Virus record (IMG/VR): IMGVR_UViG_3300034407_002608
Span: 1-23,760 of that record
Reading direction: 5' to 3' (one strand)
Length of the DNA: 23,760 bases
DNA from: a virus
Within the stretch, counting starts at the first letter, position 1. Each line of letters begins with the position of its first letter. Positions 1 to 16,624 of the stretch are shown one piece after another. The position numbers and the translations under genes are program-made. The notes below the pieces were generated by a model. That model was given only the letters and a program-made list of their open reading frames with translations, was not told where the DNA came from and ran no database searches.

Positions 1-34
1 TAGTCAAACCCGAAATTACATATTCTAAATTCAT
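1..34 (-). CDS. Partial gene start, cut by window edge
   Basis: An ATG at 32-34 overlaps the folE stop codon by one base (TAATG), the same coupling used throughout this operon. It reads MNLEYVISGLT before the window ends. Eleven residues are too few to identify it. By position it is the next gene of the preQ0 cassette or the start of the resumed replication module; which one cannot be told here. Confidence 0.55.
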   Translation of the reverse strand, partial: MNLEYVISGLT

Positions 35-693
35 TATTTTCTTACCGCTAATTGCATAAACTCATTTCTAAGTCTTCCATCATCAAAGAAAGCTCCACCT
101 AGTTTTGATGTAGTCATACCTGATTGTTGATCTCCGATACCTCTTGACTTAACACATAAATGTTGAGCTTCCATCAGTACTGCTATGTCGTCTGTACCTA
201 GTATATACTGTAAAGCAAAATATATTTGTTCATTTAATCTTTCTTGTACTTGAGGTCTTCTCGCGAAGAAATTAACAATTCTATTCAATTTAGAAAGTCC
301 TACAACTTTGTCTTTCGGTATGTAAGCTACTTGAGCCACACCATTAAAGTTTACAAAGTGATGTTCACATAATGAATGAAAAGTAATATCTTTCTGTATT
401 ACCATTTGATTATATTTCATCTTGTTATCGAATGTAGTGATCTTCGGAAATCTGTTATAAGATAATCCATAACACAATTCACTAACAAACATCTTCGCGA
501 CTCTATCTGCTGTACCACCGATTGAATCATCTTCACGATCTAATCCTAATACATCAATAACTGTCTCCATATTGTCACGAATCAATTCAATTTTTTCTGA
601 TTCGTTCAATTTACTTTCTAATATCGGTGTTTCGACACCATTCGATATTAGATATTCTTGTACTCTTTTACCAAGTAATTTATCTGTTTTCAT
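34..693 (-). CDS. folE: GTP cyclohydrolase I (FolE)
   Basis: This 219-aa protein is GTP cyclohydrolase I, which converts GTP to 7,8-dihydroneopterin triphosphate, the first step toward both folate and 7-deazaguanines. The zinc-site residues of the family are visible: Cys109 and His112 in SLCEHHF, and Cys180 in HLCVKSRG. The length matches the bacterial enzyme of about 220 aa. The start ATG overlaps the queC stop (ATGA), so the gene is translationally coupled to queC. With queD, queE and queC in the same run of genes, its product is most likely committed to preQ0 rather than folate. That is inference from context; the enzyme assignment itself is secure. Confidence 0.96.
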   Translation of the reverse strand: MKTDKLLGKRVQEYLISNGVETPILESKLNESEKIELIRDNMETVIDVLGLDREDDSIGGTADRVAKMFVSELCYGLSYNRFPKITTFDNKMKYNQMVIQKDITFHSLCEHHFVNFNGVAQVAYIPKDKVVGLSKLNRIVNFFARRPQVQERLNEQIYFALQYILGTDDIAVLMEAQHLCVKSRGIGDQQSGMTTSKLGGAFFDDGRLRNEFMQLAVRK

Positions 694-1457
694 AATTTAT
701 ATTTATCCAATTCAAAATACCTCGGACTTTTGTCCAAAGCGTTAATAATATCAGTATCTTCTTTTCCTCTATAACCACCGTTATAGATTGAAGTCAATAC
801 ATTCTCTAACCATGGAGAATCCCATGGATTTTTCTTCCAATACCCTTGAGTATCTATTCCATTGTTTTCAAGTGAAACCCATTTTCTAAAACAAGCTTTA
901 CATTGACCACAATGTTGTTCTTCACCTTCATAACATGAATAAGATGTTAGAAGATATAATTGATTACCACCGAAAGTAATATATTCATTTACTAAATCAG
1001 TTTTTGTTCTGTCTTTGAAAGGTGAACTAATAGAAAATCGTCTTTCTTCTGTCCAATGTTGTGCCTGCCACATATGATTCAATAAGTCTTCCATTCTTGT
1101 ATAGAACTTTTCATCTTTATCGAATGATCTATCTCCATGTACAGAACCTAACCATATTGTTTCACCGAAATGAGAAGCTAGTAATGTAAGATGAGCGTTT
1201 CTGTTCGGAATGATCGCGTCGTCCCTTTCAAAAATACCTAAGTCAATTACATCATCAAGATTGACTAATTTAGATTCATCAATACCGATTGAATCAAAAG
1301 TCTTTCTTTCAGTCTTATCATAATTAGAATTCATACTAATGTTTAAAAGTACATCAGGTTTCATCAAGTGATTAATTATAAGACTGTCTTGTCCACCACT
1401 AAAGAGAAGTACAGATTTACCTCTGACTTTTTCTTTATTGTCTGTTATCATTTTCAT
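690..1457 (-). CDS. queC: 7-cyano-7-deazaguanine (preQ0) synthase QueC
   Basis: QueC is an ATP-dependent enzyme that turns 7-carboxy-7-deazaguanine plus ammonia into preQ0. The 255-aa protein has the PP-loop SGGQDS at residues 20-25. A zinc-binding Cys cluster lies near the C-terminus: Cys175, then Cys183, Cys186 and Cys189 in HCGQCKAC, followed by FRKW as in the family. The length is slightly above the usual 220-235 aa because of a longer C-terminal tail. Start and stop overlap the neighbouring genes by four bases on each side (ATGA), so it belongs to one translational unit with the small membrane protein upstream and folE downstream. A second in-frame ATG two codons later is an alternative start. 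Confidence 0.95.
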   Translation of the reverse strand: MKMITDNKEKVRGKSVLLFSGGQDSLIINHLMKPDVLLNISMNSNYDKTERKTFDSIGIDESKLVNLDDVIDLGIFERDDAIIPNRNAHLTLLASHFGETIWLGSVHGDRSFDKDEKFYTRMEDLLNHMWQAQHWTEERRFSISSPFKDRTKTDLVNEYITFGGNQLYLLTSYSCYEGEEQHCGQCKACFRKWVSLENNGIDTQGYWKKNPWDSPWLENVLTSIYNGGYRGKEDTDIINALDKSPRYFELDKYKL

Positions 1458-1711
1458 GTCGCTTTCCTTAGTCTATAAAATTTATGTAAACCGTATACAC
1501 TTAATGAGAACCAAAACACTTCGATCACCATACTAGCTAAGTTCCAATTATATAATAAACTTACAGTTACTAGTATCGCTACAATCATATTGTTAAAACT
1601 ATACCAAAATCCTTTAGGATCTATTCTATCAAATTGAAGTAAAGCATAAGTACTAATTAATAAAGCGACTCCAACTAAACCAATAATATCCGGTATTCCT
1701 ATATCAACCAT
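1454..1711 (-). CDS. Small membrane protein, CBU_0592-like
   Basis: This 85-aa protein has three hydrophobic stretches, at about residues 8-25, 38-53 and 60-76, and a basic C-terminus (HKFYRLRKAT). The N-terminal pattern IPDIIGLVGVALLISTYALLQ resembles the CBU_0592-like family of small bacterial membrane proteins, known by pattern only and without a settled function. It overlaps the 50-aa membrane protein upstream by 8 bases and queC downstream by 4, so it is embedded in the preQ0 operon. The position suggests a link to precursor transport or membrane-associated metabolism, but nothing in the sequence proves that. It has no resemblance to the known queuosine-precursor transporters YhhQ or QueT that I can see. 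Confidence 0.8.
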   Translation of the reverse strand: MVDIGIPDIIGLVGVALLISTYALLQFDRIDPKGFWYSFNNMIVAILVTVSLLYNWNLASMVIEVFWFSLSVYGLHKFYRLRKAT

Positions 1712-1856
1712 AAGCTATCGCTCCCACTAAAAATCCAAAGTAAAAAATAAAGATATCAAAAAAGAAATGCATCGCGAATGATAACGCGAATATCTCTTTC
1801 CAATGTATCTTACAAATATCAAATTTATCTTTGATCCATTCTATAATTCTATTCAT
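1704..1856 (-). CDS. Small single-pass membrane protein (50 aa)
   Basis: I place the start at the ATG at 1854-1856, which overlaps the queE stop by one base (TAATG). A longer in-frame reading up to 1889 would run inside queE and lacks a better start. The 50-aa product has a basic amphipathic N-terminus (MNRIIEWIKDKFDICKIHW) followed by one long hydrophobic, Phe-rich segment (about residues 20-48) that can cross the membrane once or form a hairpin. I do not recognise a family. It is coupled to queE and to the 85-aa membrane protein, so the two membrane proteins probably act together. Confidence 0.65.
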   Translation of the reverse strand: MNRIIEWIKDKFDICKIHWKEIFALSFAMHFFFDIFIFYFGFLVGAIAYG

Positions 1857-2704
1857 TATGTTCCTATTTGATTTCCAAAAATGTAACAATGAACTCTTGC
1901 TGATACATTGTACCCTCTATCCATTGTTTGTATTGTTATGTCTTTCGCGACTTCATCTTGTGATTCTTCTGTTGCACCTACAGGCATAATCCATATCGGA
2001 TAGTCAACACCCGCGTCTCTAAACTTAATGATTGATTCTTCAATTTCATTCCAAGCTTCGTCTGTACCATTACATACAAATTTTAATTGACCAATATCTG
2101 ATAAGTCATGATACTGTTTAACTACTTCTGGTTGAATACCTTCTTTCTCACCAGCGACACTCCATAGTTTCGGACTGACTGAAAAGAAAAATTCTACTTC
2201 TTCTTGTATACTTTGTAAATAATTAGTTAAGATCGGATCAAGACTTCTTGTACCATTTGTTTCCCATGTAATATTAGTGAAACGATTTCTTCGACCTAAC
2301 AGTCTTTCCATTTCTGTTAGAATCTTTACTGTATTCTTCTGTGCTGCTTTCATCAAAGGTTCACCACCTGTAAAAGCTATATGTGTATGTCTATCATACA
2401 TTTGATCATATAATCTTTTCGCGACTTCTTCACAAGTTTCATTCTTTTGAATCTTCGCGAACTTCTTACTCCAAGAATAAGATGAATCACAACCATATTT
2501 CCATACAGGTAAGTCTTCTACATTTTTTACATCAATAAGATCAAAATCTTTGTATGGTAATTGATATGTTGAAGGATCAGTCGGATCATCTTGTCCGAAT
2601 CCATTACACTCTAAATTACAACCAAAGAATCTTAACCAAGTTGTTGGTACACCTGTGTAGTGACCTTCACCTTGTATACTCTTAAAAATTTCCGAATACA
2701 GCAC
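1856..2704 (-). CDS. queE: 7-carboxy-7-deazaguanine synthase QueE (radical SAM)
   Basis: QueE is a radical SAM enzyme that contracts 6-carboxytetrahydropterin to 7-carboxy-7-deazaguanine. I start it at the GTG at 2702-2704 because GGGAG lies 5 nt upstream; a TTG six codons earlier has no such site. The 282-aa protein shows the QueE N-terminus (YSEIFKSIQGEG), TGGEP at 112-116 and the expected downstream fold pattern. The iron-sulfur cysteines are Cys29 and Cys33 in GCNLEC, with the third at Cys72 in YGCDSSYSW. A 38-residue insert therefore separates the second and third cysteines, where the simple radical-SAM pattern has two residues. The gene overlaps the queD end by 23 nt. Confidence 0.93.
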   Translation of the reverse strand: MLYSEIFKSIQGEGHYTGVPTTWLRFFGCNLECNGFGQDDPTDPSTYQLPYKDFDLIDVKNVEDLPVWKYGCDSSYSWSKKFAKIQKNETCEEVAKRLYDQMYDRHTHIAFTGGEPLMKAAQKNTVKILTEMERLLGRRNRFTNITWETNGTRSLDPILTNYLQSIQEEVEFFFSVSPKLWSVAGEKEGIQPEVVKQYHDLSDIGQLKFVCNGTDEAWNEIEESIIKFRDAGVDYPIWIMPVGATEESQDEVAKDITIQTMDRGYNVSARVHCYIFGNQIGT

Positions 2705-3146
2705 TGTTACTCCCGTGTTCAAATACTTTAACTGATCTTACTTTAACTCTATCGTCTTCGAAATGTAGTTGACAAAAGTTAAATACTTCTTCCGCGAACG
2801 CTTCACAACCTACATTGTCTAATACTCTTAAATCAATTAGATTAAGATTCTGTAACATTAAAAATGTTTCATACTCCGGATCATCATGAGCTATTACAGT
2901 TGTATGATCAAAAGTTTCTTTTAGATATTTCTTTAGTAATCCTAGATCACCGAAATCAATAACCCAATTTTGTTTATTTAATGTTGAAGACTCGAATGTT
3001 ATTTCAAATCCTAACGCGTATCCATGAATCAGATTACAATGAGAGTCTGCTCTCCATTGTCTGAATGCACATGAATGACCTGTCTCATTACCATATGTTT
3101 TTACAACTCTATATGGTCTTAATTCTGTTCTTTCTCTATATTTCAA
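2682..3146 (-). CDS. queD: 6-carboxytetrahydropterin synthase QueD
   Basis: QueD makes 6-carboxy-5,6,7,8-tetrahydropterin from dihydroneopterin triphosphate. This 154-aa protein starts with TTG overlapping the gp44 stop (TTGA). It has the family zinc/active-site region: His24 in TGHSCAFRQW, then SHCNLIHGYAL with Cys37 and His41, and FDHTTVIAHDD further on. The usual HGH zinc pair appears as HGY, so Tyr43 replaces one classic ligand. His36 immediately before the Cys may compensate. I believe this CFRQW/SHC/HGY form is a recognised proteobacterial subgroup of QueD. The overlaps with gp44 and queE join the replication genes and the modification cassette into one transcript. Confidence 0.9.
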   Translation of the reverse strand: MKYRERTELRPYRVVKTYGNETGHSCAFRQWRADSHCNLIHGYALGFEITFESSTLNKQNWVIDFGDLGLLKKYLKETFDHTTVIAHDDPEYETFLMLQNLNLIDLRVLDNVGCEAFAEEVFNFCQLHFEDDRVKVRSVKVFEHGSNSAVFGNF

Positions 3147-4081
3147 TTTAATTTACACTCCATCATTAATTCAGTCATACATGCTACCATGTTAACTTCT
3201 TGATCTGCTACAAACGCTGACTTATATGTGTAGTCACTCAATATTATTATTGCTTGAGGTACACTACTGTTTTCCATTCTAGTAAACAATGAGTCATATA
3301 TTTTTCTGTATATCGCTTGTGGATCATTATGTATATTTAGCGCTACCCATTTTCTCATTTTTGAGAACTCTTTGTCTCGAATAAAACTCAAGACTTCTTG
3401 TAGAGACTCATCATCTAAGTTCGCGAGAACACCACTATCAATCTTACCAGACGCTGAATACTTCTGTAATTCATTTAGAACTCGTCTAAAGTCCGGAAAG
3501 AACTTCTGTACTAACTCTACAACTACTTGTTCATTATAATCTATACTTTCAGTTTTAAGAATATGTAATATTCTTTGAAAGATACCACCTGCTATAGTTG
3601 GTTTCTGACTTGATTCAATCGTAAAATCAATAACACTACATCTTGAATGTAATGGTGAGATAATTCTATTTTTATAATTACAAGTAAATATGAATCTACA
3701 GTTCTTAGAAAATTCTTCTATGAATCCTCTGAGAGCTGGTTGTGTTGATTGAGGATTTAGATAATCTGCTTCATCAAGAATCACAATCTTCGGACCACCA
3801 CCTAATGATACTGTAGACGCGAACTGTTTAATCTTAACTCTGAGAGTATCAATGTTTCTTTCTTCTGAACCATTGATCATTACAAAGTCAGCGTCTAATT
3901 CATTACATAGTGCTTTCGCGACTGTAGTTTTACCTACACCTGCTGTACCACATAATAGTAGATTCGGTATTTCTTTGTTGTTTACAAAATCTTGAAATAT
4001 CTTTTTTGTTTCTGTCGGTAGAATACAATCATTGATAGTTCTAGGTCTGTATTTTTCAACCCATAAAAAATCTTCTTTCAT
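3143..4081 (-). CDS. 44: Sliding clamp loader large subunit gp44 (AAA+)
   Basis: This 312-aa protein is the T4 gp44-type clamp loader ATPase, an RFC small-subunit homologue that opens the gp45 ring and loads it on primer-template DNA. The N-terminus LWVEKYRPRTINDCI is the RFC box. Walker A is GTAGVGKT at 45-52, Walker B is ILDEAD at 101-106, and the SRC motif is at 146-148. The length is close to T4 gp44 (319 aa). It lies 2 nt downstream of gp45, the standard T4 neighbour. Its usual downstream partner gp62 is not next; queD begins inside its stop codon instead. Confidence 0.96.
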   Translation of the reverse strand: MKEDFLWVEKYRPRTINDCILPTETKKIFQDFVNNKEIPNLLLCGTAGVGKTTVAKALCNELDADFVMINGSEERNIDTLRVKIKQFASTVSLGGGPKIVILDEADYLNPQSTQPALRGFIEEFSKNCRFIFTCNYKNRIISPLHSRCSVIDFTIESSQKPTIAGGIFQRILHILKTESIDYNEQVVVELVQKFFPDFRRVLNELQKYSASGKIDSGVLANLDDESLQEVLSFIRDKEFSKMRKWVALNIHNDPQAIYRKIYDSLFTRMENSSVPQAIIILSDYTYKSAFVADQEVNMVACMTELMMECKLN

Positions 4082-4083
4082 TA

Positions 4084-4752
4084 CTAAGCTTCATTATAAG
4101 TTGAATCAGGTTCCAAAGCTATAAAGTATTCTACAGCGATATCTCTGTTAGTAAAGTGAGCGATTCCTTTTGATGATACAAAGACTGTATAGTTACCATT
4201 AAGAACTTTAATGTTTTCCATTCTTAAGAACATTTCAAAAGTTGATCCGTTACCCTCTGCCACAGTTCTACTGTAAACATTAGATGTCGCGTTCTTTTTG
4301 TCTTTGACTGTTAATTGAACTGTTGTACCATCACTAGAAAGTACCATGTCTGGTAATGATAATACAGAAGAAGCTTTGAGTAAACTTCCAAGTACATCTT
4401 CATCAAGATCAAAACTGATCTCAGGTTCAGGCATTGTAATATCTTTCTGTGGTGATATAACCATTTGAGGATCAGCGTAGTAATAAGTTACTGAGTTATC
4501 TCCTTCTGTAACATTCACATTATCACCATTGAAATTGAAGTCAGGAGTATCGAATAATGATACTGCTCCAAGATATTCTGATAGATCATAGATTGAATGT
4601 TCTGTATCGAAGGTTTCGTCTACGACTGCCTTCGCGAAGATATTCTTCATTGCTGATACAGTTGTTAGTTCATTACCGGACTTAACTGTAATCCCGGAAT
4701 TGATTGTTGAAAAATTATTCAACAATTTTAGTGTGTTTTCACTTAGGTTCAT
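4084..4752 (-). CDS. 45: Sliding clamp gp45 (DNA polymerase processivity factor)
   Basis: I choose the ATG at 4750-4752 (MNLSENTLKLLNNF), because homologues of this type begin just here and GGAG lies 12 nt upstream. An ATG six codons earlier has no ribosome-binding site. The 222-aa product matches the T4 clamp in length (228 aa) and in its opening pattern of a helix, then GITVKSGNELTTVSAMKNIFA. gp45 forms a trimeric ring that tethers the polymerase. In T4 it also activates late transcription through gp55 and gp33. It overlaps the DUF3310 gene by 14 nt and is followed directly by gp44, so it is probably driven by the promoter at 5066-5093. Confidence 0.92.
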   Translation of the reverse strand: MNLSENTLKLLNNFSTINSGITVKSGNELTTVSAMKNIFAKAVVDETFDTEHSIYDLSEYLGAVSLFDTPDFNFNGDNVNVTEGDNSVTYYYADPQMVISPQKDITMPEPEISFDLDEDVLGSLLKASSVLSLPDMVLSSDGTTVQLTVKDKKNATSNVYSRTVAEGNGSTFEMFLRMENIKVLNGNYTVFVSSKGIAHFTNRDIAVEYFIALEPDSTYNEA

Positions 4753-5059
4753 TTGATTCACTTTCTCCATTATTTAAATCATGCACATGAAGTGCTATTA
4801 TGCCATAATGTAAAACTTTCATTAAGTCTTTACGATTATAACCTTCTTTTTTACCATAGCGTTGAGCATATTTGAGAATGTTTCCTATACAGAACCCTTC
4901 TCCATGTCCACCGTCTATTATAAACTCTGTTGCTTGAAAATTATTAGCTGAGTAATGTTGACCATAAGTACTTTTGATATATAAATCAAGTTCTTTGATA
5001 ATTCTATCTTCTGAATACTTAAAGTCAATTTTTTCTTTTCTAAATAATTTCAAACTCAT
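4739..5059 (-). CDS. DUF3310 family protein
   Basis: This 106-aa protein carries the DUF3310 signature in its second half: TEFIIDGGHGEGFCIGNILKYAQRY.KK.G..RKDLMKVLHYG. The family is widespread in phages and includes T7 gp1.7, a nucleotide kinase, so a role in nucleotide metabolism is plausible but not shown here. The start ATG at 5057-5059 overlaps the stop of the upstream 72-aa gene (ATGA). It also lies only 6 nt after a consensus -10 box, so transcripts from that promoter would begin at or near the start codon. Confidence 0.85.
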   Translation of the reverse strand: MSLKLFRKEKIDFKYSEDRIIKELDLYIKSTYGQHYSANNFQATEFIIDGGHGEGFCIGNILKYAQRYGKKEGYNRKDLMKVLHYGIIALHVHDLNNGESESNEPK

Positions 5060-5274
5060 ACATCTATTATATCAGCATTTGCTGTCCTGTCAAGTTTCTT
5101 TCTGTCGTATTTTGTTCGATCTTTTTGTACTTGAGTTTTAGCGTGTGCTGGTGTTTGTTTTCTCACTTTGACATCAGGTTTTTCTTTGCCGAAGATTTTT
5201 TCCCAATTATCTTGGTAATCTGTATTCGACTCTGGTCTTCTTTTTGACCCTTTACCTCCATGCCACTTAGTCAT
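5056..5274 (-). CDS. Basic hypothetical protein, 72 aa
   Basis: I do not recognise this protein. It is very basic and hydrophilic (MTKWHGGKGSKRRPES at the N-terminus, then a Lys/Arg-rich middle), with no cysteines and no hydrophobic segment, and is probably disordered or nucleic-acid binding. The WHGGKGSKRRP start resembles short proteins seen in other marine T4-like phages. Its start overlaps the SET-domain stop by one base and its stop overlaps the DUF3310 start by four. The last 13 codons, encoding KLDRTANADIIDV, double as a complete promoter. Confidence 0.75.
   Translation of the reverse strand: MTKWHGGKGSKRRPESNTDYQDNWEKIFGKEKPDVKVRKQTPAHAKTQVQKDRTKYDRKKLDRTANADIIDV
5066..5093 (-). promoter_or_regulatory. 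Sigma70-type promoter before DUF3310-45-44
   Basis: On the minus strand, TTGACA (5088-5093) and TATAAT (5066-5071) are separated by 16 nt, a perfect match to both consensus boxes. The spacer shares ACAGC.AATGC with the promoter before gene 55. The ATG of the DUF3310 gene begins 6 nt after the -10 box, which predicts a leaderless or nearly leaderless transcript. The promoter lies inside the last codons of the upstream 72-aa gene. Confidence 0.85.
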
Positions 5275-5612
5275 TAGTTTAAGATATCATCATATCCTAC
5301 TGTATAGAATACTGTTATCTCCTCATCTTTTTTGATTGGTCTAATTGTATATAATTCTCTTTGATCACCATGATGATAATGAATATTTTTATTGATGAAA
5401 CAATTAGGATTATCTGAATGATTGATAAAACCACCAAGAGGTGTTCTAATCCAATCGTGTCTGTTAGACTCCCATATATGAGTTTCTCCAATAAAGATAC
5501 CAGCTTTCAAGTCTTCTGTTGCATAGAGACCTAAACCATGTATCTTTGATTCTTTAATTGTGACTTCTGGTATCAGAGGTCTGTAGTGATGTGATCCAAA
5601 ATCTTTTTTCAT
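5274..5612 (-). CDS. SET-domain protein
   Basis: The start at 5610-5612 overlaps the stop of the 163-aa gene (ATGA); a longer reading from a TTG upstream is less likely. The 112-aa product is a minimal SET domain. It has GLGLYATEDLKAG near residues 27-39 for the S-adenosylmethionine site, GGFINHSDNPNC at 60-71 (the RxxNHS-type pseudoknot motif) and EEITVFYT with Tyr103 near the C-terminus. SET proteins methylate lysines on proteins. Phage versions of this size occur, but their substrates are not known. It lacks the pre-SET and post-SET cysteine clusters of eukaryotic enzymes. Confidence 0.88.
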   Translation of the reverse strand: MKKDFGSHHYRPLIPEVTIKESKIHGLGLYATEDLKAGIFIGETHIWESNRHDWIRTPLGGFINHSDNPNCFINKNIHYHHGDQRELYTIRPIKKDEEITVFYTVGYDDILN

Positions 5613-6100
5613 TTCGTGTACCATGTTGGTGTTGGTCTGTTTTTCCAACTACAAAAGTGAGACTTCTCACCCATGTAATAATTTCTGTAAGCTTCAATAG
5701 TATCTGTAGACTTGTATTCGTCTGGCATACATTGAGGTGGGTTTGTTCTTCTTTGATTTATCATTGGAATGTTCAGAGGTGGTTCTCTTAAAACTTCTCT
5801 CAATTTTAAATCTGTAGTATGAACTTTCTCATACCTGTATGTGTATTCTTCACATAGTTCTTCAAATAGATTAAACATCCATTTATAATTGTAGACATTT
5901 TCTCTTACCCATTTTGTACTTGGGTGATTAAGATGTGCTTGTTTGTACATAAACAAGTTATCACATTTATCATTTCCATCTAATGCTCTGTGAGCTGTAC
6001 ATAACATTTGAGCTGATTCTAAAATCATTTTAACACAATGTTTATCGTTATGCATCTGAGCACAGACTAATGGTTCTTCATGTAAATAAAATATATTCAT
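5609..6100 (-). CDS. Conserved phage protein, possible distant DenV relative
   Basis: This 163-aa protein belongs to a family I recognise from phages and bacteria but for which I know no function. Recurrent features are an N-terminal HxDKHxxKMILE helix (HNDKHCVKMILE), AHRALDG, NHPSTKWVRE, an aromatic helix (YNYKWMFNLFEEL), EYTYRYEK, PPLNIP, MPDEYK and a C-terminal WKNRPTPTWY. The last element and the overall helical layout loosely recall T4 endonuclease V (DenV), which ends in RPTWYKYYGK, but this is a weak resemblance by eye. It overlaps the 73-aa gene upstream and the SET gene downstream by four bases each. Confidence 0.85.
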   Translation of the reverse strand: MNIFYLHEEPLVCAQMHNDKHCVKMILESAQMLCTAHRALDGNDKCDNLFMYKQAHLNHPSTKWVRENVYNYKWMFNLFEELCEEYTYRYEKVHTTDLKLREVLREPPLNIPMINQRRTNPPQCMPDEYKSTDTIEAYRNYYMGEKSHFCSWKNRPTPTWYTK

Positions 6101-6318
6101 CTTTTAAAGTTTAACTCCTGTTGCCAATTCTTTTTATTACTTTCATAACATGGACTATTTAACTGACATACAATCAATCTACCACCGTCCATATCCAATC
6201 TAATACTGTCTGATATAAAAGTACCACCATTAACATCATGTACAATAGCTTCTATTGAACCTGATTTATCTTCTGAATGTAAGTTCTCAATCAGTTCTAT
6301 GAGTTCTTCTTTCCTCAT
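6097..6318 (-). CDS. Hypothetical protein, 73 aa
   Basis: Unrecognised 73-aa protein with an acidic N-terminal helix (MRKEELIELIENLHSEDK), a likely beta-rich middle (GSIEAIVHDVNGGTFISDSIRLDMDGG) and a C-terminus ending in LNFKR. The start overlaps the upstream gene stop and the stop overlaps the downstream start, both as ATGA, so it is a genuine member of the operon. No signal peptide, cysteine motif or membrane segment is visible. Confidence 0.75.
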   Translation of the reverse strand: MRKEELIELIENLHSEDKSGSIEAIVHDVNGGTFISDSIRLDMDGGRLIVCQLNSPCYESNKKNWQQELNFKR

Positions 6319-6578
6319 AGTTTTTGAATTTGTCTAAGAGTGGTTGTTACTTCTTTCCAGGTAAGTCTACCTAGAACATCTTCTGTAATTGGTGTTGAGT
6401 AATCTATGTTACCATCAGCATCTAATACAGCCAATTCCCATAACCCTAGTTTACCACCATAACTATGTTCGTGTCTTATAACACTAGCACCCATGTTGTT
6501 GTCAAATTGATAGAGTTTTTGAACTCCACCGAATGTATCATTTGTCTCATAACAAAAGTCTTCTAACATTCTACTCAT
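6315..6578 (-). CDS. Hypothetical protein, 87 aa
   Basis: I start this gene at the ATG at 6576-6578 because GAGG sits 8 nt upstream, matching the GAGGT-type ribosome-binding sites used elsewhere here. Earlier in-frame ATG and TTG codons have no such site. The 87-aa product (MSRMLEDFCYETND...) has a probable beta-sheet core around RHEHSYGGKLGLWELAVLDADG, and the C-terminus is helical. I do not recognise a family. It is the first gene downstream of tRNA-Ala and probably lies on the same transcript. Confidence 0.72.
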   Translation of the reverse strand: MSRMLEDFCYETNDTFGGVQKLYQFDNNMGASVIRHEHSYGGKLGLWELAVLDADGNIDYSTPITEDVLGRLTWKEVTTTLRQIQKL

Positions 6579-6616
6579 AATAATATCCTCATTTAAATAC
6601 ATAATAATTCTCAAAT

Positions 6617-6692
6617 TGGTGGAGGTAATAGGGATCGAACCTACGACCTACTGGTTGCAAACCAGTCGCTCTCCCAACTGAGCTATACCCCC
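6617..6692 (-). tRNA. tRNA-Ala (anticodon UGC)
   Basis: The 76-nt minus-strand sequence folds as a full cloverleaf. Its acceptor stem GGGGGTA/TACCTCC contains a G3-U70 wobble pair, the classic alanine identity element. It also has a D-arm with AGCTC..GAGC, an anticodon stem ACTGG/CCAGT with loop TTTGCAA, and a T-arm with GGTTCGATCC. Discriminator A73 and the CCA end are encoded. It lies 2 nt downstream of tRNA-Thr and upstream of a protein gene, so it needs to be cut out of a longer transcript. Confidence 0.96.
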
Positions 6693-6694
6693 AC

Positions 6695-6764
<70 letters not shown>

Positions 6765-6770
<6 letters not shown>

Positions 6771-6953
6771 GTTTAGTTTTTCGTGACATTTTTCACAAAA
6801 CTCTGGATCAACCATTACTAATTGATCTTTAATCATACTTGGTCTACCTGAAAGATTGACTGCTACATACATATGTACATCATCTTCAATATAGACACCA
6901 CACTTAGAACATTTACCTGGTCCGAATTGTTCTTTAAATTCAATCGGAGCCAT
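6765..6953 (-). CDS. Small zinc-ribbon-like protein, 62 aa
   Basis: The 62-aa protein has two CxxC pairs, KCSKC at residues 14-18 and FCEKC at 52-56, separated by 34 residues. This is the spacing of a zinc ribbon or treble-clef knuckle. The middle segment (HMYVAVNLSGRPSMIKDQLVMVDPEF) looks like beta strands. It probably binds nucleic acid or protein; the partner is unknown. Its ATG overlaps the stop of the 45-aa gene upstream (TGATG). Its final Ala codon and TGA stop are the first bases of tRNA-Thr, so coding and tRNA sequence overlap. Confidence 0.82.
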
Positions 6954-7090
6954 CAGTAAATCAGTTCTAAAAGTTCTTCATACATAGTTCTAAATTGTTC
7001 TTTAGTCATATAAGGTTTTTCTTGTTTCATTGAGTTCTTCATGTAAACATTATATGCTTCGTCTAATTGTGTTTCTAAGTATAAAATCAT
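6953..7090 (-). CDS. Hypothetical 45-aa protein
   Basis: A 45-aa reading frame, MILYLETQLDEAYNVYMKNS..., ends with TGA overlapping the start of the zinc-ribbon gene by one base. It is predicted to be mostly helical, with a motif MTKEQFRTMYEELLEL at the C-terminus that resembles the last helix of many small phage proteins. No clear ribosome-binding site precedes the ATG; the 3' side of the hairpin at 7103-7184 ends 12 nt upstream of it. The stop/start coupling is the main support. Confidence 0.6.
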   Translation of the reverse strand: MILYLETQLDEAYNVYMKNSMKQEKPYMTKEQFRTMYEELLELIY

Positions 7091-7102
7091 AATTCAAAAA
7101 TT

Positions 7103-7184
7103 GGCGGGATGGAGATATGCGTCATACTACAAGAGTAATGAGGTAAATTGTTCTCCTTGTATAGTTGTATCTCCTGTCCCTGCC
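7103..7184 (-). ncRNA. Candidate structured RNA: long imperfect hairpin
   Basis: The segment between two small genes folds into a long hairpin. GGC (7103-7105) pairs with GCC (7182-7184), GGGA (7106-7109) with TCCC (7177-7180) and GGAGATA (7111-7117) with TATCTCC (7168-7174). An inner helix pairs ACTA/TAGT (7126-7129/7162-7165) and CAAG/CTTG (7130-7133/7156-7159), with a possible GAG/CTC at the top. That is about 22 pairs with small bulges. On the transcribed strand it begins 5 nt after a stop codon and is followed by AATTTTTG and then an ATG. It could be a processing site, an attenuator, a leaky terminator or an independent small RNA. I could not match it to a known family. Confidence 0.55.
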
Positions 7185-7189
7185 CGAGC

Positions 7190-7333
7190 TCATTGGCCCC
7201 TATTATTGTCTTTAATATATTTTTGATATCCCTCGTAAGCTAAGTACCCGAATAGTACCCATAGTCCTACATTAATTATGAACTCTATTGAGAACATAGG
7301 AAACCAAAATAAATTGTATAAAAATTCTACCAT
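7190..7333 (-). CDS. Small membrane protein, 47 aa
   Basis: The ATG at 7331-7333 overlaps the stop of the upstream 45-aa gene (TAATG) and has AGAGG upstream. The product (MVEFLYNLFWFP..., ending KDNNRGQ) has one strongly hydrophobic stretch over about residues 4-32 and a polar C-terminus, so it is a single-pass membrane protein. Short proteins of this general design are found in marine T4-like phages. No function is known to me. The long hairpin RNA starts 5 nt after its stop. Confidence 0.72.
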   Translation of the reverse strand: MVEFLYNLFWFPMFSIEFIINVGLWVLFGYLAYEGYQKYIKDNNRGQ

Positions 7334-7470
7334 TATTTAAACCTCTGATAAATTACTATCGCGATGATAGTAAAAAATGTAAATGAAAAAATTGTTCCAG
7401 CTACATTCGCACCACCTGTATATGGTACTGTTGAATTTAGTGTAGTAATTACCCAATCACTTTCCCACAT
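7333..7470 (-). CDS. Small membrane protein, 45 aa
   Basis: The 45-aa frame MWESDWVITTLNSTVPYTGG... begins at an ATG overlapping the stop of the 87-aa gene by one base and ends with a TAA overlapping the next ATG by one base. A polar N-terminal half is followed by one hydrophobic segment (about residues 23-40) and a basic end (YQRFK), a typical single-pass topology with a cytoplasmic C-terminus. I do not recognise it. It forms a pair with the following 47-aa membrane protein. Confidence 0.7.
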   Translation of the reverse strand: MWESDWVITTLNSTVPYTGGANVAGTIFSFTFFTIIAIVIYQRFK

Positions 7471-7733
7471 TAGTTACTCTCCCTTACATATTGTTCAAGT
7501 AAAGCATCACCTACAAGTTGTGTACCCAATATTATTGTTTCACCTGTAGATGTAATCTCTCTTTTGACTCTACCATCATTGTATTGAACATCAAGAACTG
7601 AACCATCTTCGCGACCTTTATCATACCACAATGAAGTTAGTGAATGAGCGTGTATTGATTTAACACCATTAGCCCACTCCTCAGCTTCAATTTTTAATCT
7701 TTGTTTTTCTACTCTGTCGTTAAATTGTGTCAT
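7470..7733 (-). CDS. Hypothetical protein, 87 aa
   Basis: Unrecognised 87-aa protein. The N-terminal third is a charged helix (RVEKQRLKIEAEEWANGVKSIHAH), then a short beta-rich part (GSVLDVQYNDGRVKREITSTGETIILG), and a helix with LLEQYVRESN at the end. It starts 12 nt after the AAA+ gene stop. The sequence AATAAATA lies 6 nt before its ATG, one base off the late promoter consensus, but I do not call a promoter on that. Confidence 0.72.
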   Translation of the reverse strand: MTQFNDRVEKQRLKIEAEEWANGVKSIHAHSLTSLWYDKGREDGSVLDVQYNDGRVKREITSTGETIILGTQLVGDALLEQYVRESN

Positions 7734-7745
7734 AGTTACTATTTA

Positions 7746-8993
7746 TTAAAATAAATCCTCGTCATTTGATGGATCATCATAATCACTCATTGATTGTGAT
7801 TGTCCAGCTTGAATACCTGCTTCATACGCTGCCTGCATATTATCAGTTTCTTGTTGATATCTAAGTTGTTCTTCTTCTTCAATAGCTTCTTCATAAGCTT
7901 CGGCCTCTGCATCTACTTTAGTGTAGAGGTCTAAGAAAGTAGCTTTTGTTTCTGAATCAAACCTCGCGACACACATTTCAATCGCTTTCAATTTGTTATC
8001 AAACATTTTGTAAGCTTGAGCTATGTGAACAAGTCTTCTTGTTGAAATCAGTTCGTCAATAGCACCTTCGAAAAATGATTTTCTGATAACATCAGCCCAA
8101 GTCACTAGATTAGTAGCGAACTCGGTAGCATCTGAAACTTCAAGTTTCTCAAATTCTTTGACAAGAATTTTTTTCTCAATAGCGTTAGAAGGATATTCTT
8201 GTTCCATTGTGATTGAGAACCTTTCTAAGAAAGCTTCGTTAAGAACATTAGTTCCGATGAATCTTCCATCGTCAGAACCTTTACCTTTAGTATTCGCTGT
8301 CGCGACAACTGTAAATCCATCAGCCGGTGAAATATACTCACCAGTTTTTTTGTTTAAGTAACCTGATCCTTCGAGGATAGATTGTAAACACATAATTTTG
8401 TTAGACGCTAAGTCTATTTCGTCAATCAGAAGTACTGCTCCTTTTCTCATAGCTTTGAGAACTGGACCTTCTCTGAAAACAATGTTACCATCAATTAGAG
8501 TATTTGATCCGATTAGATCATCTTCATCCGTCTCAATCGTAACATTAACTCTGTAACATTCTCTTTTGAGTTTGGCACAGATTTGTTCAACCATCATAGT
8601 TTTACCATTTCCTGATAACCCTGTAATGAAAACCGGAAAAAACAATCCTGAATTTAGAATGTTTTTAAGATCACTAAAATGTCCGAACGGAACAAATTCT
8701 TTGATCGATTGAGGAATAACTGAAACATCATTCATCAATACATCTACTGTTCCAACAGAAGTTGGACCCACTGGTAAATCTACCACATTTTGTTGAACAG
8801 CGACACCCGCTAGTTCAAGTGAATAAGTCCCATGACCTACTCTGAAATCTTTTTTAGTAAACCAAGAAGGAAAAGGACAACCTGTCTCGGCTACCACTTT
8901 CTTGATTTGTGAAGTTGAAAATTCTGACTGACCAGGATATGTCTCCGAAGCTGCGTCAATGAATTTCTCATGTTGTGCTGTCAATTTAATCAT
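7746..8993 (-). CDS. cobS: CobS/MoxR-like AAA+ ATPase
   Basis: This 415-aa AAA+ protein is of the type annotated as CobS in marine T4-like phages. An N-terminal helical domain (LTAQHEKFIDAASETYPGQ...) precedes a MoxR-class core with Walker A GLSGNGKT (125-132), Walker B LLIDEID (188-194) and an arginine-finger region (NEAFLERF). The tail is acidic and Gln-rich. In cobaltochelatase, CobS partners with the VWA protein CobT. The gene upstream here encodes a VWA protein, so an ATPase-VWA remodelling pair is likely, while true cobalt insertion is unproven. The ribosome-binding site GAGGT lies about 10 nt before the ATG. It has its own promoter at 9041-9070. Confidence 0.88.
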   Translation of the reverse strand: MIKLTAQHEKFIDAASETYPGQSEFSTSQIKKVVAETGCPFPSWFTKKDFRVGHGTYSLELAGVAVQQNVVDLPVGPTSVGTVDVLMNDVSVIPQSIKEFVPFGHFSDLKNILNSGLFFPVFITGLSGNGKTMMVEQICAKLKRECYRVNVTIETDEDDLIGSNTLIDGNIVFREGPVLKAMRKGAVLLIDEIDLASNKIMCLQSILEGSGYLNKKTGEYISPADGFTVVATANTKGKGSDDGRFIGTNVLNEAFLERFSITMEQEYPSNAIEKKILVKEFEKLEVSDATEFATNLVTWADVIRKSFFEGAIDELISTRRLVHIAQAYKMFDNKLKAIEMCVARFDSETKATFLDLYTKVDAEAEAYEEAIEEEEQLRYQQETDNMQAAYEAGIQAGQSQSMSDYDDPSNDEDLF

Positions 8994-16059: not shown

Positions 16060-16590
16060 TTATTCGTCTACTTTTTTCTTCTTAGACCCGCGAGGTTTGT
16101 AGTTTATCGGATTCATATTCTCTTGTAAGAAGTCAACATAAGAGTTGTTCATACCTGTCGTATTTCCATCCATCGTGTCAAAAGTATCGAACATGACCCC
16201 AGCTTGTTCTATACTTCTTTGTTTAATCGCTGCTTGTTTCTTTTCTTTATGAATTCGTCTGAGAAACGCGAAATAAATGATCTGAGTTACATAAGCAAAA
16301 GCGTTTTGAGATTTTTCTTCATTAAAGTTCTCAATGTATTGTAAACAATTTTCAATACCATCACATATCATTTCATCTCTATATGAATAATTGATAAAGT
16401 TAGGTTTAGTAGATAGTCTAGTAGCGATCTTGTAAATACATTCTCCAATATACTCTGATACTCTAGGCTTCTCTTTACCTTTATTATCGGCTTTTCTACA
16501 CGCGTGATTGTGTTCAATAATCGCGGCAGTAAACTCTTTATTGTTTACATAGTGAACTGAAGCTTTTGTTTGTCTTTTTTCTCTAGTCAT
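16060..16590 (-). CDS. 55: Late-transcription sigma factor gp55
   Basis: This 176-aa protein corresponds to T4 gp55 (185 aa), the small sigma-family protein that directs host RNA polymerase to TATAAATA late promoters. It has the sigma region-2-like block with YSYRDEMICDGIENCLQYIENFNEEK, then AFAYVTQIIYFAFLRRIHKEKK, as in gp55 homologues. The C-terminus is short and charged (PRGSKKKKVDE), where T4 gp55 has its clamp-binding hydrophobic tail. Two matching late promoters occur in this window, at 20161 and 23076. Its own promoter ends 6 nt before the ATG, and there is no ribosome-binding site. Confidence 0.93.
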   Translation of the reverse strand: MTREKRQTKASVHYVNNKEFTAAIIEHNHACRKADNKGKEKPRVSEYIGECIYKIATRLSTKPNFINYSYRDEMICDGIENCLQYIENFNEEKSQNAFAYVTQIIYFAFLRRIHKEKKQAAIKQRSIEQAGVMFDTFDTMDGNTTGMNNSYVDFLQENMNPINYKPRGSKKKKVDE

Positions 16591-16596
16591 ACTACT

Positions 16597-16624
16597 ATTA
16601 TACTTGCATTCGCTGTACTGTCAA
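16597..16624 (-). promoter_or_regulatory. Sigma70-type promoter before gene 55
   Basis: Minus strand: TTGACA (16619-16624), a 16-nt spacer, then TATAAT (16597-16602), both perfect consensus. The spacer shares ACAGC.AATGC with the promoter at 5066-5093, and the stretch to the start codon is 6 nt in both. The stop codon TGA of the upstream gene lies inside the -35 box. Gene 55 mRNA is predicted to begin at its ATG. Confidence 0.88.

Follow-up and report, generated by a model that had tools for sequence, protein, structure and literature searches.

The stretch of DNA considered here, referred to as the window, is the whole of the IMG/VR virus record IMGVR_UViG_3300034407_002608 (23,760 bases), a fragment of a T4-like phage with a cassette region on its minus strand, in which genes for the synthesis of 7-cyano-7-deazaguanine (preQ0) follow the clamp loader gene 44. 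With a probability of roughly 0.8, most of an operon lies in the window whose products synthesise a 7-deazaguanine and introduce it in exchange for guanine into the phage DNA as protection against restriction. Judged from its nearest isolates, the phage is probably marine: in a megablast search against isolate phages, 12 records matched, each over 1% or less of the window (eleven of them within the capsid gene and one where the tRNAs lie), the short gp23 matches were to Prochlorococcus, Synechococcus, and Pelagibacter phages, and gp44 is 58% identical to that of Methylophilales phage Melnitz. For comparison, 21 loci obtained by scanning viral contigs with the QueC protein of the window were joined with those of a further scan to a set of 75 distinct related contigs, which may be fragments, exclude the window's own record, and are labelled L002, L003, etc. 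The genes and signals of the region are the following (coordinates of the window; numbers after database names are E-values):

1..34, minus strand: start of a putative dpdA2, 11 codons (MNLEYVISGLT) running off the contig end; identical first residues in L002
34..693, minus strand: folE, GTP cyclohydrolase I; PF01227 (GTP_cyclohydroI) 4.4e-57, PDB GTP cyclohydrolase 1 2e-64, PHROGs FolE 8.3e-69
690..1457, minus strand: queC, divergent phage subfamily; Pfam QueC 2.3e-16, PHROGs QueC 9.9e-21
1454..1711, minus strand: orf85, small membrane protein of the CBU_0592 family; NF047864 2.5e-25
1704..1856, minus strand: orf50, small hydrophobic open reading frame (ORF); start codon ATG at 1856, the junction to the stop of queE reading TAATG
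1856..2722, minus strand: queE, 7-carboxy-7-deazaguanine synthase; Pfam Radical_SAM 9e-7, PHROGs QueE 1.5e-51
2682..3146, minus strand: queD, 6-carboxytetrahydropterin synthase; Pfam PTPS 4.5e-17, PHROGs QueD 1.2e-35
3143..4081, minus strand: gp44 clamp loader, operon neighbour upstream of queD; Pfam and PHROGs
4084..4770, minus strand: gp45 sliding clamp; Pfam and PHROGs
4739..5059, minus strand: DUF3310 protein, the gene nearest to the promoter; PF11753 1.3e-10
5066..5093, minus strand: sigma-70 promoter TTGACA-N16-TATAAT with TG, its end lying 6 nt ahead of the start codon of DUF3310 (5059)

Start and stop codons overlap all along the way from gp44 to folE, and the junctions TTGA (gp44/queD), ATGA (queC/folE), and TAATG (folE/next gene, a one-base overlap with the folE stop) are exactly those given in an earlier, sequence-only reading of this DNA, whose basic observation of four tightly overlapping preQ0 genes (queD, queE, queC, and folE) behind gene 44 is borne out by the Pfam and PHROGs matches. 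Absent from that reading were the two ORFs between queE and queC (1454-1711 and 1704-1856) and the dpdA2 codons at 34-1. The smaller of these ORFs, orf50, which in the ORF list starts at an upstream TTG and thus has 61 residues, is present in 4/75 relatives (L002, L003, L059, and L061); homologues of orf85 occur in 60 phage records, 59 of them of Vibrio. The ratio of nonsynonymous to synonymous substitution rates (dN/dS) was 0.04-0.28 against up to five relatives (only two for orf85) for gp45, gp44, queD, queE, queC, folE, orf85, dpdA2, and gp62, and therefore both the cassette and the replication genes are maintained by purifying selection; together with the E-values, these ratios rule out chance gene calls. 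Gene content, order, overlap, and conservation are direct observations, as are the promoter sequence and the assignment of DpdA2 from its sequence and fold (see below). As a further feature beside the replication genes, a SET-domain protein (5274-5648; PF00856 1.5e-12) is encoded, which is present in many relatives.

The sequence-only reading saw no transglycosylase and hence left the end use of the pathway open. Neither statement holds, because the contig ends 11 codons into dpdA2 and this gene is simply cut off: two sister contigs match the window up to its very edge (L002 with 99.3% identity to positions 1-8605, L003 with 99.2% identity to positions 1-4960), and in both the next gene after folE is a complete ORF of 428 codons, so that absence of a transglycosylase from the cassette can be dismissed. 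The protein (P0001 in L002) has no Pfam match and falls in phrog_10773 ("unknown function"). In a two-sequence comparison it was 29% identical over 298 residues (E 6e-36) to YP_008125322.2 of Vibrio phage nt-1, for which Hutinet et al. (2019, PMC6884629) introduced the name DpdA2. An AlphaFold model calculated from 39 DpdA2 sequences had a predicted local distance difference test score (pLDDT) of 91, an earlier one from 11 sequences having been poor (pLDDT 60.7). The top eight Foldseek matches of the model were seven entries for tRNA-guanine transglycosylase (TGT) and, at rank 8 (E 6e-7), 7ui4, the DNA preQ0 insertase DpdA; a VIA-align superposition on TGT 1wkf gave a Z-score of 19.2 and a root-mean-square deviation of 3.9 over 286 residues, and hhalign paired the DSGG and FDE motifs of DpdA2 and Escherichia coli Tgt (probability 94.6, E 7e-8). 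The 39 sequences share 30 invariant columns including D77, D113, and D269, which probably correspond to the catalytic aspartates of TGT. By sequence and predicted fold, the ORF after folE is therefore likely to encode a DpdA2-type transglycosylase.

Among the 21 contigs found with the QueC of the window, 18 carry DpdA2, the exceptions being L012 and L015, whose sequences break off within folE or shortly behind it, and L022. The latter belongs to a different phage, in which queD, folE, and a queC of the same family (L022:541-3254) are followed by a 283-residue phrog_887 protein ("queuine tRNA-ribosyltransferase"), so that the divergent QueC there adjoins another type of transglycosylase.

With DpdA2 in the operon, 7-deazaguanine in DNA, which the sequence-only reading had listed among the uses of this pathway in phages, becomes the most likely one. 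FolE, QueD, and QueE would convert GTP to 7-carboxy-7-deazaguanine (CDG), the divergent QueC would amidate and dehydrate the latter to preQ0, and DpdA2 would exchange guanine in the phage DNA for preQ0, yielding dPreQ0, the modified guanine serving as protection against restriction. The chemistry, DNA as the target, and restriction as the reason are inferred by analogy to known families. The genes present, four of them encoded completely and dpdA2 by its start, point to group 2 of Hutinet et al., defined by preQ0 genes plus DpdA or DpdA2 and the lack of an amidotransferase or QueF in the genome, of which the window is a fragment; the minimal set FolE, QueD, QueE, QueC, and DpdA gives dPreQ0 in phages CAjan and Rosebush, and a dpdA mutant of CAjan was cut by all enzymes tested (PMC6884629). 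No glutamine amidotransferase was found among the cassette ORFs of the window, an amidotransferase-like partner being present in 18 of 53 relatives discussed below. The most likely product, at somewhat better than even odds, is dPreQ0, with dADG as the next candidate.

Several findings weigh against this interpretation. The complete dpdA2 is present in sister contigs only and not in the window; when DpdA2 was compared by hhalign with two rows of phage DpdA, no significant match resulted (probability 1.6), phmmer against PDB sequences gave seven unrelated matches (best E 0.27), and a DpdA2 profile found no match among PDB sequences. In nt-1, the one DpdA2 phage measured in the study of Hutinet et al., dPreQ0 makes up only about 0.11% of G (PMC6884629). 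Two further points, which concern the motifs of QueC and the absence of ACGT sites, are taken up below.

A use of the cassette to boost preQ0 for queuosine in host or phage tRNA and thereby to improve translation was also considered, since the preQ0 pathway is common to queuosine synthesis and such a role has been proposed for T4-like phages (PMC5587285, PMC7198788). We regard it as improbable. The operon contains DpdA2 rather than a canonical TGT; a Pfam TGT match was found in none of 10 related contigs, the positive control having matched in 14/14 genomes, and the motif CxCxxC, which we take to be the zinc pattern of TGT, occurs in 0/63 DpdA2 sequences. In a search for QueF, which the sequence-only reading had proposed, no match exceeded the cut-off in eight related contigs of up to 153 kb. 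The 14.6-18.7 bits reached in six of these eight (cut-off 27.3) were taken as folE, three of the matches (L014, L074, and L096) lying inside folE and the other three no more than 540 bases upstream of dpdA2, in the place of folE. Pfam QueA was found in 0/10 related contigs, DUF5591 in one of the ten. Since the contigs may be fragments, the absence of QueF, TGT, and QueA from them is no proof. Apart from two tRNAs, Ala(TGC) and Thr(TGT), neither of which is a queuosine acceptor, Rfam at gathering scores recognised nothing in the window.

The claim that all four enzymes have intact active-site motifs applies without exception only to FolE, whose CEHH motif is kept in 58/58 relatives. QueD keeps the active-site residues Cys37, Asp80, His81, and Glu143, and at the positions of the HGH and AAH histidines, which we take to be zinc ligands, it has HGY and CAF; HGY is found in 51/51 relatives, and the QueD of Aminobacter phage Erebus carries the same replacements. 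In some sister contigs the queD at the gene 44 site is replaced by a distant one whose product is 32-35% identical (e.g., L009:6480-6992 and L013:8558-9076). QueE has an insert of 38 residues between Cys39 and Cys78, the second and third cluster cysteines of the radical-SAM motif, in 52/52 relatives; a long insert lies at the matching place in the QueE proteins of nt-1, Aeromonas phage Ahp1, and pf16 and is absent from those of E. coli, CAjan, and Erebus. As the odd motifs of QueD, QueE, and also QueC (see below) are common to whole lineages, damage to the enzymes was rejected as an explanation. The lack of the presumed zinc ligands in QueD, together with the role of FolE in folate synthesis, could also be taken to mean that these two enzymes work in the metabolism of folate or pterins and that the cluster is a loose metabolic set. 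This is very improbable, as queE, queC or its substitute, folE, and dpdA2 stay together over many contigs, and queE and dpdA2 are not known to have a role in folate synthesis.

QueC deviates most strongly. The canonical (cluster 1) signature includes SGGxDS, VPxRN, the zinc cysteines, YxQxHxxE, and YPDC (PMC13329287). SGGxDS, PxRN (PNRN in the window), and the zinc cysteine pattern are kept in 33/33 relatives, although the first residue of VPxRN may be I as well as V, and the first spacing between cysteines is 7 instead of 8 in the window. At the YPDC position, [YF]DKD is present in 33/33 relatives (FDKD in the window) and [YF]xDC in none, and likewise YxQxH occurs in 0/33, Gln and His of YxQxHxxE being lost. 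By these motifs the protein belongs to a divergent subfamily that shares the canonical signature only in part. With two canonical motifs missing, the reaction could stop at 7-amido-7-deazaguanine (ADG), so that the same operon would place dADG in DNA instead of dPreQ0. In accordance with this, QueC Y131A was inactive and Y131F partly active (PMC13329287), the QueC of the window matched 16 phage records, 6 of which belong to Campylobacter phages (25% identity), and in Campylobacter phages CP220 and CPt10 dADG replaces all G (PMC8306585). On the other hand, Tyr46, Arg86, and Tyr176 are retained, and they align with residues that E. coli QueC was found to require, the QueC of Campylobacter phage CP21 has FPDC at the aligned site and thus does not share the FDKD change, and the other type of QueC in sister contigs also lacks [YF]xDC (0/19). 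Loss of the Cys alone therefore does not single out the divergent QueC. We consider termination at ADG unlikely, though a more serious candidate than a role in queuosine synthesis, and retain dPreQ0 as the preferred product.

Expression of the operon may start from the promoter before the DUF3310 gene, whose sequence matches the sigma-70 consensus perfectly. The window contains two perfect matches (expected 0.07; as many in 1/100 shuffles), and looser matches are no commoner than in shuffles (27 vs. 30.0). The 6-nt spacing to DUF3310, whose starts in this comparison are mechanical ORF starts, recurs in 15/16 contigs, L015 having no perfect match. A host-type RNA polymerase could therefore transcribe DUF3310, 45, 44, the que genes, and dpdA2, with a very short leader or none. 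The promoter upstream of gp45 would express the cassette together with the clamp and the clamp loader, and thus the base exchange could proceed during DNA copying. The second perfect match is located elsewhere in the window:

16597-16624, minus strand: sigma-70 promoter, ending 6 nt before the ORF 16060-16590 (gp55 by position only)

The spacers of the two perfect promoters are alike, CAGCGAATGC in the second against CAGCAAATGC in the first.

The position of the cassette within the replication cluster 45-44-62 was confirmed with the sister contigs. In L002, dpdA2 is followed by gp62 (L002:10283-10819; PF16790 2.9e-14) and then regA (PF01818). In phage Melnitz, gp45, gp44, an ORF of 60 residues, and a 128-residue "DNA polymerase protein" are contiguous; the last, presumed from its position to be gp62, would make Melnitz the empty arrangement without a cassette. 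As had been proposed, the insertion interrupts 44-62, but with gp62 still downstream, the cluster is not broken up, and a loss of gp62 can be rejected. The cassette directly follows gp44, with gp62 downstream of dpdA2, in 29/75 contigs, two more ending before gp62; L044 has an extra ORF between gp44 and the cassette. In 26/75 contigs the search downstream of dpdA2 meets gp43 before gp62. These form a sister lineage with the cassette elsewhere in the replication region, upstream of gp43. The sequence-only reading had counted it as a point against itself if related phages carried their que genes elsewhere; some of them do, and this bears on the history of the cassette, not on its function.

The segment between queE and folE is variable among the relatives. 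Its content could be assigned in 53 of the 75 contigs and not in the other 22: the divergent QueC alone in 32, another QueC together with a glutamine amidotransferase (GAT)-like protein in 18 (six of them with DUF5591, three with DUF6884), and an S-adenosylmethionine (SAM) methyltransferase without queC, again followed by dpdA2, in three (L069, L070:6352-7338, and L078:1528-2394). The second type of QueC matches Pfam much better than the divergent one (5e-54) and has YxQ in 19/19, but [YF]xDC is found in 0/19 (YWDT in L052), so that it can be called "canonical" only with reservations. In 20/20 cases the N-terminus of the GAT-like protein reads MC[AGS]I[FVY]G, a start typical of class-II glutamine amidotransferases, but its Pfam matches are weak (GATase_7 0.0037 in L052, below the cut-off; nothing in L097). 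Examples of the second QueC with an MCAIFG partner are L052:4129-5486, L050:5271-7329, and L059:3305-5101; in KVP40, the database record annotates the gene after queC with PF00310. The pair is perhaps a split Gat-QueC making dG+; DUF5591, which accompanies it in some contigs, is known from archaeosine synthase. The two methyltransferases scanned match Methyltransf_23 (1e-13 and 3e-12), and in the place of QueC they offer a possible route to methylated CDG, which to our knowledge has not yet been described.

Trees were calculated for the 30 contigs with gp44, queE, folE, and dpdA2 (16 with the divergent QueC, 14 with QueC plus GAT), only contigs without one of the four genes being left out. The distribution of the QueC types requires two changes on the dpdA2 tree, two on the folE tree, five on the queE tree (in which the rows of L060 and L062 are long-branched, with a split ORF), and seven on the gp44 protein tree; on a DNA tree of gp45 plus gp44 it requires five (5-6 in bootstraps), and a single clade is rejected (approximately unbiased test, p 4e-41). 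As the trees of dpdA2 and folE need the fewest changes, these two genes seem to be inherited largely along with the type of queC and apart from the replication genes. We tentatively propose, at less than even odds, that the locus works as a cartridge for chemistry, in which gp45-gp44 are kept and a block of queC (with or without GAT and an ArcS-like protein, or replaced by the methyltransferase), folE, and dpdA2 is swapped. Different blocks would write different 7-deazaguanines, the lone divergent QueC leading to dPreQ0 or dADG, QueC plus GAT to dG+, and the methyltransferase to methylated CDG; DpdA2 would move along with the block, since it has to be matched to the base; the TCGCGA content discussed below would shift with the block, as the modification site or an imprint of modification. 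This proposal is doubtful on several counts: the QueC type is clustered on every tree, that of gp44 included (16-18 of 500 shuffles as low), the branches starred on the gp44 tree force only three of its seven changes, even on the dpdA2 tree the QueC type is spread over more than a single clade, and L010 combines the divergent QueC with a DpdA2 grouping among the QueC plus GAT rows.

Restriction-site signals were evaluated after omission of contigs below 7 kb and eight near-identical ones; the same eight were dropped from the hexamer comparison. ACGT is absent from the window (0 vs. 51.4 expected in a first-order model), also within its genes (0 vs. 29.6 in synonymous shuffles, the lowest of 300 having 19). 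Avoidance is lineage-specific: it affects ACGT in the 44/62 lineage (17 vs. 324 expected in 14 contigs with the divergent QueC, 5 vs. 231 in 10 with QueC plus GAT) and GATC and CCGG, which are among the lowest, in the gp43 lineage (94 vs. 528 and 3 vs. 68 in 10 contigs with the divergent QueC); two methyltransferase contigs of the gp43 lineage are also without ACGT (0 vs. 33). The absence of ACGT fits strong restriction pressure. As it would be needless under full protection, it also suggests that any modification is not fully protective, and, next to a modification operon, that these phages need more than a modified base.

The hexamer TCGCGA is over-used in the window (16 vs. 1.0 in the first-order model; 14 vs. 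1.1 in genes, at most 5 in 500 shuffles), with sites at 261, 495, 1772, 1945, 2419, 2455, 3421, 3916, 4632, 7359, 7609, 7964, 8300, 13204, 13807, and 17725; 12 of the 14 sites in genes read NTC GCG A, and the excess goes beyond what codon usage explains. Compared with a model from the window's own 5-mers, the excess is small (32 vs. 26.2, both strands). TCGCGA is denser in contigs with the divergent QueC than in those with QueC plus GAT, also when only gp45-gp44 is counted (0.84 vs. 0.18 per kb), and of five independent pairs 3.8 on average agree with the QueC type and none opposes (p 0.125). It is the most over-used of the 64 palindromic hexamers in both QueC groups, and its between-group ratio of 3.3 lies outside the six largest, which belong to rarer hexamers. 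The pattern is post hoc, because it was spotted while reading the sequence. No CGCG occurs in 24-kb stretches of HTVC008M and Melnitz.

With this analysis a preQ0 pathway that looked like an orphan gains its partner, phrog_10773 is linked to DpdA2, and dozens of environmental contigs are provided with a testable DNA chemistry. If the cartridge proposal holds, a single locus offers natural pairs of related phages with the same replication genes and different predicted base chemistry. With such pairs one could examine directly which threats each of the 7-deazaguanines wards off and if the transglycosylase evolves in step with its base. In the open-access literature searched, as far as its text was available, the 44/62 site, the exchange in the queC slot, the (Y/F)DKD QueC, and the QueE insert were not found, whereas preQ0 genes have been published for T4-like phages and for viruses from the sea (PMC9301287, PMC7198788, PMC8056088, PMC5587285), and DpdA2 has been described as well.

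Among known systems, Vibrio phages nt-1 and KVP40 are likewise T4-like and possess FolE, QueD, QueE, QueC, and DpdA2 (PMC6884629, PMC8056088); nt-1 shares the long QueE insert at the matching place, and an orf85 homologue (in nt-1 a "putative permease", 36% identical) directly follows queE in all six phage records of the nt-1/KVP40 type whose positions were compared. They differ in that their queE is far from the other que genes, which lie near gp31 and not between 44 and 62, in that QueF is reported for KVP40 and ArcS for nt-1 (PMC8056088, PMC6884629), and in their QueC, which is 20-21% identical to that of the window and keeps YGQ and YWDC; dPreQ0, dADG, and dG+ were measured in nt-1 DNA (PMC6884629). 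CAjan and Rosebush also combine FolE, QueD, QueE, and QueC with a transglycosylase and no amidotransferase (PMC6884629), and the dpdA of CAjan is also located beside replication genes, but both are siphoviruses, and the DpdA of CAjan has 306 residues vs. 428 in the DpdA2 considered here, without a significant profile match. The T4-like Pseudomonas phage pf16, for which a queuosine module was described (PMC5587285), has a QueE with 38% and a DpdA2 with 32% identity, encoded several genes apart and annotated as hypothetical. By its description (PMC7198788), the marine T4-like Bacteroidetes virus TARA_ERS488589_N000003 carries queE, queD, and GTP cyclohydrolase genes, but with gene numbers far apart, with queF, and with queC not listed. 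The combination of preQ0 genes and DpdA is thus already known in T4-like vibriophages, and the locus described here represents a new variant of it in a new setting.

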